Shown: piece after piece, positions 22,003-63,455 of the stretch
How positions within the stretch are numbered: position 1 is the first letter of the stretch
How the letters are laid out: each line of letters begins with the position of its first letter
From: Truepera sp. bin119
GTDB taxonomy: Bacteria; Deinococcota; Deinococci; Deinococcales; Trueperaceae
NCBI GenBank assembly: GCA_002239005.1
Contig: MPNL01000013.1
Location: 1-64,000 of the forward strand
Direction: 5' to 3'
Length of the DNA: 64,000 nucleotides
Notes under the pieces: generated by a model
The model's database searches: none
What the model was told of the DNA's origin: nothing
The model's input: the letters and a program-made list of their open reading frames with translations, nothing else
Translations under genes and position numbers: made by a program

Positions 22003-22024
22003 CGCCGCTGATGGAGGTCCGAAC

Positions 22025-23644
22025 ATCCTCAAAGCCCTAGCGAACCTCGGTTGGGACCGAGACGAACACGTTCCTCGACGTGGCGCCCTGATCGCCTGCA
22101 ACGGGATGACAGCCTCGACCAATCCGGTAACCAGCCGCGTCGGCCTTGAAGTCCTGCAAAGTGGGGGGAATGCCGTCGACGCCGCCGTAGCCATGGCTGC
22201 AACCCATGTTGTGGTCGAGCCCCACACGGGTCACTTGGGTGGTGACAGCTTCATGATGTTCCACCTTGCCCGGAGTGGAACGACGTTGGCGCTCAACGCC
22301 AGCGGTGCAGCGCCGTCGGGAGCGACCCGGGAACACTTCTGCAACCTTGGGGGGATTCCCGAAAAGGGACCCCTAGCCTCCTGCGTGCCGGGCACGGTCG
22401 ACGGCTGGGCAGAGGCAAGTCGGCAGTTCGGAACAATGCCCTTAGCGGACCTCCTGGGTCCGGCGGTCGAGGTAGCACGCCAGGGCTTCCCGGTCCAGAA
22501 TCGATTGGCCCGCAGCCTGAAACGTGCCTCAAGTACTTTCCGCCACTATGAGGGCTCTGCAAGGCAGTATCTGAATTCGAACGGCGACCCGCCCAGGATC
22601 GGAGAGATTCTACGGCAACCCTGGTTAGCCGACACGCTCGAAACTATTGGACAGCAGGGAGCCGACAGCTTCTATCGCGGCGCACTGGCCCAAGAAATCG
22701 TCGATTACTGGCAGGGTATCGGCGGACTCTTTACTCTCGATGACTTCGCCAGCCACCACTCTTCCATCGAGAAACCCCTGACGGTTACCTATCGGGGCTT
22801 CGATGTCATGCAACAGCCCCTGCCATCGCAGGGGCTATTACATCTGTTGATGTTGAACATAGTCGAGACATTCCCCCTAAAGGAATGGGGACTCCACAGT
22901 CCCGATGCGGTCCACTGCATGCTCGAAGCGAAGAAGCTCGCCTTCCAGGTCAAAGACCACCACCTCGGCGATCCCGAACGCATCTACGTTCCCGTCGAAC
23001 GGCTGCTCGACAAGGATTTCGCTGCCGAACTTGCTGAGGGCATCGATATGAATCGGGCCCGGAACCTCACCACCGAAGAGACCACCATCTCCTCCGACAC
23101 GGATTTCCTGTGCGTAGTAGACAAGGATCGCAACATTGCCTCTAATATCCATAGTCTCTTTCCGGGCTGTGGGGTGACCGTCCCCGGTGTCGGAGCCCTA
23201 TTCAACAGTCGCATGCTCAGCTTCAGCCTGCAAGAGGGACATCCCAACGCCGTAGAACCTGGCAAGCGGCCGCTGCACACCTTAAACACCTGGATGCTGT
23301 TCCACGAGGGCCGACCGTTGGTCGTAGGTGGCGTTACTGCCGGTGACCTTCAAGTCCAGTTCAACCTGCAAATTATCACTCAACTGATCGATGGCGGCGC
23401 TCAACTCCATGAAGCCCTAGATGCTCCAAGGTGGGGCAACCTGAGAGATCGGGAGATCACCCTGGAAGATCGCAACGCAGGCGGTCTCTTTGACGAACTT
23501 GGACGCCGGGGTCATCAACTTACAGCTCAGTCGGCCTGGGGAGCGACGGGAAGAGCCCACGCCATCGCTATCGATTACAATCGGGGAATCCTGATCGGGC
23601 ACAGCGAATCCAGGGACGATGGGGGATTCGTGATGGGCTACTGA
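22025..23644 (+). CDS. Gamma-glutamyltransferase-like (GGT/YwrD-type) amidohydrolase
   Basis: Ntn-hydrolase of the gamma-glutamyltransferase superfamily, 539 residues from this start, without a signal peptide. Autoprocessing should occur before the nucleophile Thr in SSDTDFLCVVDKDRN; the second Thr and His of the classical TTH motif are replaced by Asp-Phe. The usual GSxGG loop reads GGVTAGDLQVQFNLQ, as in cytoplasmic GGT-like acylases. Homology to the family begins at RGALIACNG, upstream of the first in-frame ATG (22106). A strong GGAGGT at 22013-22018 is followed after 6 nt by an in-frame ATC at 22025, which I take as the start; ATG 22106 is the conservative alternative. Cleavage of amide or lactam side chains fits the cluster. 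Confidence 0.8.
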   Translation: MLKALANLGWDRDEHVPRRGALIACNGMTASTNPVTSRVGLEVLQSGGNAVDAAVAMAATHVVVEPHTGHLGGDSFMMFHLARSGTTLALNASGAAPSGATREHFCNLGGIPEKGPLASCVPGTVDGWAEASRQFGTMPLADLLGPAVEVARQGFPVQNRLARSLKRASSTFRHYEGSARQYLNSNGDPPRIGEILRQPWLADTLETIGQQGADSFYRGALAQEIVDYWQGIGGLFTLDDFASHHSSIEKPLTVTYRGFDVMQQPLPSQGLLHLLMLNIVETFPLKEWGLHSPDAVHCMLEAKKLAFQVKDHHLGDPERIYVPVERLLDKDFAAELAEGIDMNRARNLTTEETTISSDTDFLCVVDKDRNIASNIHSLFPGCGVTVPGVGALFNSRMLSFSLQEGHPNAVEPGKRPLHTLNTWMLFHEGRPLVVGGVTAGDLQVQFNLQIITQLIDGGAQLHEALDAPRWGNLRDREITLEDRNAGGLFDELGRRGHQLTAQSAWGATGRAHAIAIDYNRGILIGHSESRDDGGFVMGY

Positions 23645-33045: not shown

Positions 33046-33641
33046 GTCTCGACTCCCTTATCAGCCTGCTTATCCTCATCTTCTTCATAGGACTACCCCT
33101 GCTGAGTCGACTGAGCAGGAGGGGTGGTCGGTCCCCCTCAGTTCCGTCACGCCCACCAAGCCACCCCCGAGTGATGGGCAAGAGGCAGCAGGAGATCCCA
33201 CAACAGCAGCCAGCTGACGAGGACTTCTTGCGCCGACTCGAGGAGGCTAGGCGCCGGGTGCAAGAGGCCATGAACCAGAGCGGTCGGACGGAAGCGCGAC
33301 TCCCGCAGCGGTCTGGGCAAACCCAAACCCCGCCGTCGCCTCCTCCTCCGGTGCCCTCTGCTGCGCCCGCTGGCCCGATCAGGATACCAGCCCCCTTGCA
33401 GGTGCCGTCAGGTCCCCTCTTGCAAACCTCGGTTCCCCCACCAGCAGAGAGAGAGGTTCCCGAAAGGCGCTCCGACCTGCCGGTCCGGAGGGTCCGCCGG
33501 GCAGCCGGACAGGGGAACGAGGGTCGAAACAGGCAGATCTCGGCAGATCGACAAGATATCATCAACGGCATCATCTGGAAGCAGATTCTGGATAGGCCGC
33601 CGTGGGAACGCAGAGGGAGGACGCCATCGCCACGACGGTAA
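33042..33641 (+). CDS. Proline-rich single-pass membrane protein, unknown function
   Basis: I do not recognise a family. The 199-residue protein begins with one hydrophobic helix ([17 protein letters not shown]), then an Arg/Ser/Pro-rich region, a short charged helix ([19 protein letters not shown]), a proline-rich linker and a basic C-terminal segment ending [15 protein letters not shown]. The ATG overlaps the floA stop by 4 bp (ATGA), and its 3' end overlaps the proposed phoH start, so it is translated in the same operon. Overlap at both ends and steady codon pattern favour a real gene; a role with floA/NfeD is inference from position only. Confidence 0.7.
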
Positions 33642-34543
33642 CGTTGAAGCTCCACAGTCCGGCCGAGGCAATGAGCCTCTTCGGTCACAACGACCAAAAC
33701 CTCAAAGCTCTACGGAGCCGTCTGAACGCCAAGGTCGTAGCGCGTGGGGATGAGCTCCGCCTCACGGGTGCCGATCAGGATGTCGAAGAGGCGGCGCGGA
33801 CCTTCCAGAGCCTGCTACGCACAATCCGCCAAGGGGGCGAACTCAGCCTCACCGAGCTCGAACACGCCGACCTCACGACTATCGTGTTGGAGGAAGAACC
33901 CGACCCTGCGCTTCCGCGGAGGGCGCAACCACAAACCTCAGGACAGCGCCGCTACATCCGGGCCATCCACAAAAGCGCCATCACCTTTGGGATCGGACCC
34001 GCCGGAACGGGCAAGACCTACCTTGCCGTCGCCATGGCCGTACAAGCCCTTGCTCACCGGCGAACCAAGCGGATTATCCTTACCCGCCCGGCTGTCGAAG
34101 CGGGCGAGCGGCTCGGCTTCCTGCCTGGGGACCTACAGGCGAAGATCGATCCCTACCTCCGCCCCCTCTATGACGCCCTTTACGACATGCTTCAGGGAAA
34201 CCGCATAGACCAGCTCATGGATCAGGGGAGTATCGAGGTCGCTCCACTGGCCTTCATGCGCGGACGGACGCTGAACGACGCCTTTATCATCCTCGATGAA
34301 GCCCAGAACACGACCCAGGAGCAGATGAAGATGTTCCTGACCCGGATGGGTTTTAACAGTAAGGTCGTGGTGACGGGGGATGTGACCCAGACCGACCTCC
34401 CAGGCTCCGTACAGAGCGGATTAACCGTAGCGGAGAAGATCCTGAAGGGAATCGAGGGCATCGAATTCCTATACTTCACGGAGCAGGACGTTGTCCGTCA
34501 CCCGCTCGTGGCTCGTATTATCAAGGCGTATGAGGGCAGCTAG
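33602..34543 (+). CDS. phoH: PhoH-like ATPase
   Basis: Cytoplasmic P-loop NTPase of about 313 residues, related to helicase cores and thought to act in RNA metabolism, often beside ybeY as here. Walker A is GPAGTGKTYLAVAMA and Walker B is FIILDEAQN, followed by the conserved TQEQMKMFLTRMGF and GDVTQTDLP. The first possible start is GTG 33602, which overlaps the previous gene by 40 bp. A better Shine-Dalgarno, GGAGG at 33616-33620, is followed by an in-frame ATC at 33626, an alternative that starts just before the conserved [10 protein letters not shown] give the GTG coordinate but consider the ATC possible. Confidence 0.92.
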   Translation: MGTQREDAIATTVTLKLHSPAEAMSLFGHNDQNLKALRSRLNAKVVARGDELRLTGADQDVEEAARTFQSLLRTIRQGGELSLTELEHADLTTIVLEEEPDPALPRRAQPQTSGQRRYIRAIHKSAITFGIGPAGTGKTYLAVAMAVQALAHRRTKRIILTRPAVEAGERLGFLPGDLQAKIDPYLRPLYDALYDMLQGNRIDQLMDQGSIEVAPLAFMRGRTLNDAFIILDEAQNTTQEQMKMFLTRMGFNSKVVVTGDVTQTDLPGSVQSGLTVAEKILKGIEGIEFLYFTEQDVVRHPLVARIIKAYEGS

Positions 34544-61697: not shown

Positions 61698-61908
61698 GCG
61701 GCTTTAGCGCACCCCGAAAACCGAAAACGTGTTGGGGAGATCCGGTTCTCGGTGGTGGGCAACCCTGGTGAGGAGGTATCATAGCTGAGGTGGACCCCCT
61801 GTTCATCAACGTACTTTAGGACCTCACTGGCCGCTGGGGAGTCCCTCTCTCTCATCGGCCTTGCACCTACACACCGCTCCTACACCGCGTTGCCTGAGGA
61901 GGTCGATC

Positions 61909-62184
61909 ATCGCAGTCTTGAGAGTCTCGGGGTCATCCCGACCCAATTCCGTAGCCGGAGCCATCGCGGCACTGTTACGCAGCGAAGGGGAGGTCGAGAT
62001 CCAGGCAATCGGGCCGCTCGCCGTCAACCAGGCGGTGAAGGCCATCGCCATCGCCCGGAGCTACATCTCGGAGGAGGGGCTCGACCTGGTGACCCAACCC
62101 TCGTTTGTGAAGCTCGAGCTGCAAAACGAGGAACGGACGGCCGTGCGCTTTACGGTCCACTCGATGCAGGTTCAAGGGGAGTAG
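61909..62184 (+). CDS. spoVS: SpoVS-family protein
   Basis: Small Alba-like nucleic-acid-binding protein of 91 residues. VLRVSGSSRPNSVAGAIAAL, EIQAIGPLAVNQAVKAIAIA and FVKLELQNEERTAVRF match SpoVS nearly throughout. In Bacillus it affects septation in sporulation; homologues occur in non-sporulating Deinococcota and Thermotogae. AGGAGG at 61897-61902 is followed after 6 nt by ATC (61909), which aligns with the initiator Met of homologues (METLRVS-type start); no ATG, GTG or TTG is near it except TTG 61918, which would remove the first strand, and a TTG at 61861 with no Shine-Dalgarno. I take ATC as the start. Confidence 0.85.
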   Translation: MAVLRVSGSSRPNSVAGAIAALLRSEGEVEIQAIGPLAVNQAVKAIAIARSYISEEGLDLVTQPSFVKLELQNEERTAVRFTVHSMQVQGE

Positions 62185-62189
62185 CTTCG

Positions 62190-63455
62190 ATCACCGATCG
62201 CCCGGTTGCCGAGGGCCCCCCCACCCCGCGTCGCGTCGCCCTCAGCCTGCTAGGCCGGGTCATGGGCGGCGCCCACGCCACACCGGAGCTGGACCAAGCT
62301 CTGAGATCCAGACCGCTGCGGAGCGACCGGACCCTCATCACCGACCTCTTGTACGGAACCCTGCGGCACCTTATCTTCCTTGAGACAGCCCTCCGGCCCC
62401 GGTTACGGGCCCCCGACCGACTTCCAGCCAGGGTCCGGCACGGCCTGCTCCTCGGCAGCTATGAGGTGCTAGTCCGGGGAACCCCGACGCATGCCGCGGT
62501 CGACCAATGGGTCGAGACCATCAAATCGGTAGTGCCGCAGTTCGCGGGGCTGGCCAACGCCGTCCTGAGGAGGATCATCCCACCCCGGAAAGCGAAGATC
62601 TCCGAGCAACTCAGCCTCCCCAGTTGGCTCTATGACGAGTTCGCCGAGGGGCTGGGCACCGAGGTGGCCGAACGGTCGGCAAGGGCGATGCTCGAGGCGG
62701 GACCGCTCTGGCTTGCCGGCATAAGGACGGGGGCCCAGCGCCGCCTCGAAGCGGAGGGCTGTGAGGTCCGACCCGGCCCGCTCGCCGACACCTTCGCCGT
62801 CCGCTGCCCCTCCCCCCTCAGGCGGCTCAGCGCCTTTCGCGACGGTCTCGTCCAGCCCCAGAACCCCTCCTCGCGCCTACCGGCGCTCCTGCTCAAGGCC
62901 TCTAGGGGAGAGCGCGTCCTCGACCTAGCGGGGGGAGGAGGGGTAAAGGCTGCGCAACTCGCAGCCCAGGGGGCGAAGGTCGTGAGCGTGGACTTAAACC
63001 CAGCGCGGCTGCGGCGAGCCGAGGAGAACTTTGCCCGACTCGGTCTCCAGGCTAGGCACATCCAGGCCGACCTCACCACAGTCCCGAACCTGGCACCGGC
63101 CATGAAGCTCCTCCTCGACGCTCCTTGTAGTGGGAGCGGCACCCTTCGCGGCCATCCCGAGATCAAGCTTAGGCTCAAGAGTCAGGACCTCCCCAAGCTG
63201 GCCCAACTCCAGTCCACCCTGCTCAGCACGGCCGCTGCCCTTACCGCCTCCGGTGGGACCCTCGTGTACGCCGTCTGCTCCCTCACGAGAGCGGAGGGAC
63301 CGGAGGTGGTGCGCAGCTTCCTTGAGGCGACAGCAGACTTCGAAGCAGAGCCGTTGGACCTGCCCCTCCCCCACCGGACTACCCCCTACGGGAGCTTCGT
63401 CCTCCCTGAAGCTGGGCTCGACGGCTTCTTTGTTGCGCGACTTCGGAGGGGTTAG
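62190..63455 (+). CDS. rsmB: 16S rRNA (cytosine-967-C5)-methyltransferase-like protein (RsmB)
   Basis: SAM-dependent RNA methyltransferase of the NOL1/NOP2/Sun family, about 421 residues. A NusB-like N-terminal domain (to about 140) starts TPRRVALSLLGRVMGGAHATPEL, and the Rossmann domain has VLDLAGGGGVKAAQLA (SAM), VVSVDLNPARL, the motif-IV LDAPCSGSGTLRGHP and the motif-VI cysteine in YAVCSLTRAEGPEV. In-frame there is no ATG, GTG or TTG from the spoVS stop until ATG 62262, which would cut the first helix. GGGGAG at 62176-62181 and ATC at 62190, 8 nt on, are the best start. Confidence 0.88.
   Translation: MTDRPVAEGPPTPRRVALSLLGRVMGGAHATPELDQALRSRPLRSDRTLITDLLYGTLRHLIFLETALRPRLRAPDRLPARVRHGLLLGSYEVLVRGTPTHAAVDQWVETIKSVVPQFAGLANAVLRRIIPPRKAKISEQLSLPSWLYDEFAEGLGTEVAERSARAMLEAGPLWLAGIRTGAQRRLEAEGCEVRPGPLADTFAVRCPSPLRRLSAFRDGLVQPQNPSSRLPALLLKASRGERVLDLAGGGGVKAAQLAAQGAKVVSVDLNPARLRRAEENFARLGLQARHIQADLTTVPNLAPAMKLLLDAPCSGSGTLRGHPEIKLRLKSQDLPKLAQLQSTLLSTAAALTASGGTLVYAVCSLTRAEGPEVVRSFLEATADFEAEPLDLPLPHRTTPYGSFVLPEAGLDGFFVARLRRG

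Follow-up and report, generated by a model that had tools for sequence, protein, structure and literature searches.

The closest described system is infC, which in E. coli and most bacteria starts with AUU, AUA or AUC (together with one another, AUH) and is autoregulated by its product IF3; AUH codons are poorly initiated and are discriminated against by IF3, which is the basis of this autoregulation. E. coli pcnB starts with AUU. In Deinococcus deserti, Baudet et al. reportedly found non-canonical start codons by proteomics in 2010. The first-pass annotation of the present locus had referred to such starts in Deinococcus, and a report of this kind does exist, being cited in PMC3305630 and PMC3564903. 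In S. aureus, infC, cvfC1 and ccpN have conserved AUA or AUU starts with strong Shine-Dalgarno (SD) sequences, and these starts cut translation of cvfC1 and ccpN; the same study also describes IF3 discrimination against AUH as the basis of infC autoregulation (PMC13009471).

The window analysed here is a stretch of 64,000 nucleotides from a Trueperaceae MAG of the Deinococcota (G000, a draft of 91 contigs). The proposal that its rsmB gene starts at AUC holds in our analysis, but its restriction to rsmB was too narrow: spoVS, phoH, hflX and infC also start with AUH. The set resembles infC elsewhere in its AUH codon, strong SD and conserved avoidance of AUG, and infC itself belongs to it; the difference is that in Trueperaceae four more genes share the AUH start, with autoregulation by their products hypothetical. 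A conserved AUH codon and an extended SD are likewise common to this set and to ccpN (AUA, in S. aureus and B. subtilis) and cvfC1 (AUU, in S. aureus), although these encode a transcription repressor and a small protein, respectively, and are other genes in another phylum; that the start codon limits translation is an experimental result for ccpN and cvfC1, whereas in Trueperaceae we infer it (PMC13009471). The pcnB case is similar in being an AUH start in a gene of RNA metabolism, but in another gene and phylum, while the D. deserti work concerns the same phylum, and ours the family Trueperaceae, with conservation compared over about 39 genomes. As AUH initiation is known already from infC, pcnB, ccpN and cvfC1, each single start adds a member to a known class, of which the family-wide set is a new form. 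A limited search of part of the literature found no paper naming hflX, phoH, spoVS or rsmB as AUH-start genes.

Features of the window bearing on AUH initiation, in order of position
Feature	Position	Strand	Evidence
gamma-glutamyltransferase CDS, probable AUC start 22025	22025..23644	+	PF01019, TIGR00066; GGAGG at 22013-22017
GGAGG Shine-Dalgarno of phoH	33616..33620	+	sequence
phoH (PhoH-like ATPase) CDS, AUC start 33626	33626..34543	+	PF02562; AUH in 30/30 Trueperaceae
GAGGAGG Shine-Dalgarno of spoVS	61896..61902	+	sequence; GGAGG kept in relatives
spoVS CDS, AUC start 61909	61909..62184	+	PF04232; AUH in 24/30 Trueperaceae
GGGGAG Shine-Dalgarno of rsmB	62176..62181	+	sequence; overlaps the end of spoVS; 8 nt before AUC
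AUC start codon of rsmB	62190..62192	+	sole plausible in-frame start; start score; AUH in six other Trueperaceae genomes
rsmB CDS, 421 aa, 16S rRNA m5C967 methyltransferase family (NusB-like and RsmB/F domains)	62190..63455	+	Pfam PF01189, PF01029

The absence of any ATG, GTG or TTG between the spoVS stop and ATG 62262, which the first-pass annotation had pointed out in the rsmB frame, is confirmed to the nucleotide, and reading the frame through shows that it extends from 61893 to 62261; canonical codons flank this stretch at TTG 61890, which precedes spoVS, and at ATG 62262. The SD and the in-frame ATC also lie where they had been placed: the stop codon of spoVS (TAG, 62182-62184) follows GGGGAG directly and opens the 8 nt spacer TAGCTTCG (62182-62189), and the ATC is in frame with the rsmB stop at 63453-63455. 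In a model of coding potential and start sites that was fitted to this genome, the ATC outscores the best canonical start by about 11 log units. A CTG at 62247 falls within the conserved helix. We are highly confident that this AUC is the real start of rsmB. The product itself matches both the NusB-like N-domain (PF01029) and the RsmB/F catalytic domain (PF01189) above cut-off, and carries the motifs DAPCSGSGT and VYAVCSL; among NCBIfam models those for RsmB rank at the top, ahead of RsmF, with their best scores (201–212 bits) below the equivalog cut-offs (269–375).

Aligning rsmB starts across relatives, the check that had been suggested, favours the AUC reading. In six other Trueperaceae genomes rsmB has no usable canonical start and shows AUH at the matching place, shortly downstream of a stop or an SD-like stretch: AUC in two (G016, GGG CAC ATC AGC ATC; G017, ATC ATC TCA), AUU in two (G011, TAA AAA ATT AGC; G001, TAA ACC ATT TCA) and AUA in two (G021, AAG ATA ACC; G007, AAA ATA ACT). 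Other Trueperaceae start rsmB with ATG (G012), TTG (G002, G008) or GTG (G014), so that evolutionary avoidance of AUG does not extend to this gene. In the genus g11 (L055, L059, L078, L079) a CTG overlaps the upstream stop (CTGA) in the rsmB frame; no canonical start precedes the conserved helix there, and CTG is the likeliest start in several of its members. The start codon of rsmB thus drifts among weak starts within the family.

This pattern lends itself to a reading in which rsmB starts at AUC with no regulatory meaning, reinitiation from the adjacent gene having relaxed selection so that the codon drifts. The variation of the rsmB start among ATC, ATT, ATA, ATG, TTG, GTG and perhaps CTG speaks for it, as does the position of the start, in the AUH species, mostly close behind an upstream stop. 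We put the chance of this reading a little short of even. It leaves unexplained hflX, phoH, infC and spoVS, all of which retain AUH while hflX, phoH and infC also avoid AUG. Since AUH is not maintained at the start of rsmB, relaxed selection under coupling is about as likely for this gene as regulation, and is a serious rival.

The remaining alternatives deny the AUC start altogether. Initiation at ATG 62262, the first canonical start past the spoVS stop, would give a shorter RsmB lacking the first helix of the NusB-like domain. A helix conserved among RsmB proteins, however, starts upstream of this ATG, as had been claimed, and the segment that would be lost, PRRVALSLLGRV, has coding signal and aligns in RsmB homologues; moreover, 62262 lacks a clear SD, and several relatives also have no canonical start at this place, which makes initiation there very improbable. 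Since the rsmB frame stays open back across spoVS, a SpoVS–RsmB fusion through a −1 frameshift, or a start at TTG 61890 through the overlapping frame, can also be envisaged; but the junction contains no slippery heptamer, the open frame within spoVS is an out-of-frame reading of a conserved gene, yugP and not spoVS lies directly upstream in several relatives, and two of the yugP-preceded relatives have a stop in the rsmB frame just before the AUH, so that we give a fusion scarcely any credence. An ATG turned into ATC by sequencing or assembly error, for which the draft state of the genome might be invoked and which had been named as one outcome that would overturn the AUC start, is the least credible of all: independent relatives also show only AUC, AUU or AUA in rsmB, and for the AUH set such error is, on the genomes compared, already refuted by AUH in the same genes across dozens of separate genomes, including the single-contig G012 and G016.

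The gene preceding rsmB in the window, spoVS, also lacks a good canonical start, a point overlooked by the first-pass annotation. The ATC of spoVS stands 6 nt behind its SD with no well-placed canonical alternative, and the product matches PF04232 (122 bits against a cut-off of 24). At the aligned position the 30 Trueperaceae have ATC in 22 cases, ATA in two and ATG in six, GGAGG precedes 22 of the 24 AUH-type starts, and the other Deinococcota families examined have GTG. In phoH an in-frame GTG at 33602 sits upstream of the SD; outside Trueperaceae we saw no clear conserved AUH in this gene.

Two further members lie elsewhere in the genome. For hflX (confirmed by TIGR03156), AUH is found in all 30 Trueperaceae and extends beyond the family, with ATC in the Deinococcota family f2 and ATT in one f3 genome, whereas f4 has TTG or GTG. 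In f5 an ATT lies one codon upstream in three genomes (ATT-ACG-GAA; the fourth of L306–L309 reads CTT-ACG-GAA), and the hflX start there may be AUU or even ACG. For infC, AUH is found in 28 of 28 Trueperaceae, a count that leaves out two divergent infC-like copies without the usual AUH (L155 in G009 and L171 in G020, the latter genome with two IF3_N matches), which are possibly foreign contigs or second copies. GGAGG precedes spoVS, phoH and infC in nearly all genomes, and an SD core precedes hflX in 25 of 30, the other five having AUH without a clear SD. The closed genome G012 has AUC in spoVS and hflX, and AUA in phoH and infC.

Three lines of evidence argue that the AUH codons in these genes are starts and not internal isoleucines. 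Firstly, 14 hflX and 14 phoH genomes lack any ATG, GTG or TTG from the preceding in-frame stop to the AUH. Secondly, ATA accounts in hflX for 11 of 30 codons (37%) at the start and for 8 of 265 (3%) at internal Ile positions (Fisher p = 8e-8; p = 1.5e-7 for hflX and phoH pooled), p-values that are optimistic given that related genomes are not independent. Thirdly, mapped onto a tree of HflX and PhoH sequences, the third base has undergone at least eight changes in hflX, seven in phoH and four in infC, at least 19 in total, none of them to G. If change to any other base were equally frequent, the chance of 19 changes avoiding G would be about (2/3)^19 = 5e-4, and A-to-G, being a transition, is expected to be commoner than this model assumes. 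Selection thus appears to forbid AUG at the starts of hflX, phoH and infC, a strict rule outside which rsmB falls, given its use of ATG, TTG, GTG and perhaps CTG elsewhere. Two control genes beside spoVS start canonically: ilvB has ATG or GTG in all readable genomes but one, and, with few exceptions, yugP has an ATG close by; the exceptional ilvB (L092, in G021) reads CTA at this place. The start-site anatomy and the conservation of AUH are direct observations, and we are as good as certain that the conserved AUH set is real.

How general such starts are was addressed by a scan of 400 kb of closed G012 (3.26 Mb) and about 430 kb of G000, the window included, from which hflX emerged, later extended to 1.6 Mb of G012, which yielded phoH. 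Few AUH-start candidates stand out among about 1,870 genes, and in the scanned DNA of G000 ATC is not enriched behind an SD (39/465 against 7.7% overall), on which grounds we reject a genome-wide loosening of start codons. An automatic filter of 178 ortholog pairs between G000 and G012 flagged spoVS alone convincingly; for the remaining three hits a canonical start lies nearby in the alignment, and phoH was probably missed owing to a one-codon gap. With ATC behind an SD at background and only spoVS convincingly flagged, the AUH set appears small and specific; for the same reason its functional theme could be due to chance. Folding of the mRNA at the starts is not unusual (z-scores 0.5 to 1.5).

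Some further genes show AUH behind an SD. That of gamma-glutamyltransferase has no canonical start from the upstream stop to ATG 22106 and probably starts at its AUC, 7 nt behind GGAGG. In an amino-acid ABC transporter permease gene (L152, G000 C82, around 30196) ATC stands behind GGGGGAG, with no canonical start near the N-terminus. The ribosome silencing factor gene rsfS has ATT or ATA behind AGGAGG in L214 (G012) and L215 (G021); we did not admit it to the set, as ATT/ATA behind an SD is the pattern of genus g13, with mostly ATG or other starts elsewhere.

How AUC would be read is suggested by the tRNA complement. The initiator-type tRNA of the genome has a CAU anticodon, a 1–72 mismatch and a GGG:CCC stem; a search for an initiator with a GAU anticodon found none, the only GAU tRNA detected being an ordinary tRNA-Ile. 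A special GAU initiator is therefore rejected, and the standard CAU initiator would decode AUC with a third-position mismatch. Three low-scoring tRNA-like genes (L039, L040 and L041, on G000 C80, C6 and C9) have odd anticodons (AGC, GAC) or are unrecognised by ARAGORN.

We envisage that ribosomes are recruited to rsmB by pairing with GGGGAG, probably together with termination–reinitiation from spoVS, whose stop lies 5 nt upstream of the AUC; in the Trueperaceae compared, too, an upstream stop is usually close to the rsmB start, and for this reason reinitiation probably contributes to rsmB translation there. The CAU initiator tRNA would place formyl-methionine on AUC, and initiation at AUC, AUA and AUU would be weak through rejection by IF3 and an accurate P site. 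The RNA- and ribosome-linked proteins of the set would then be kept low and rise as initiation becomes lax. HflX we take from its family name to be a ribosome-rescue GTPase, and for SpoVS and PhoH we know of no proven role in initiation. In E. coli the fidelity of initiation is affected by RsmB and RsmD, whose methylation targets in the P site are C967 and G966, respectively (review PMC7949028). By methylating 16S C967, RsmB could throttle its own mRNA in the way that IF3 does, a feedback that we consider unlikely. That the set is under initiation-fidelity control has, in our estimation, an even chance. A translational regulon defined by AUH starts (infC, hflX, phoH, spoVS and often rsmB), in which synthesis would follow the condition of the initiation machinery and feedback loops would be closed by IF3 and perhaps by the P-site methylation that RsmB carries out, is a tentative proposal that we are inclined to doubt. 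As a whole, an AUC-started rsmB within a wider AUH set, weakly initiated and sensitive to fidelity, seems to us the likely explanation.

Gene finders limited to ATG, GTG and TTG would misplace or miss AUH starts. Should the set prove real, a group of ribosome-linked genes would carry a regulatory signal in the start codon itself, for which only a few scattered genes have been documented until now. The AUH start of rsmB would also connect a P-site rRNA methyltransferase with the translation of its own mRNA in a way that can be tested.
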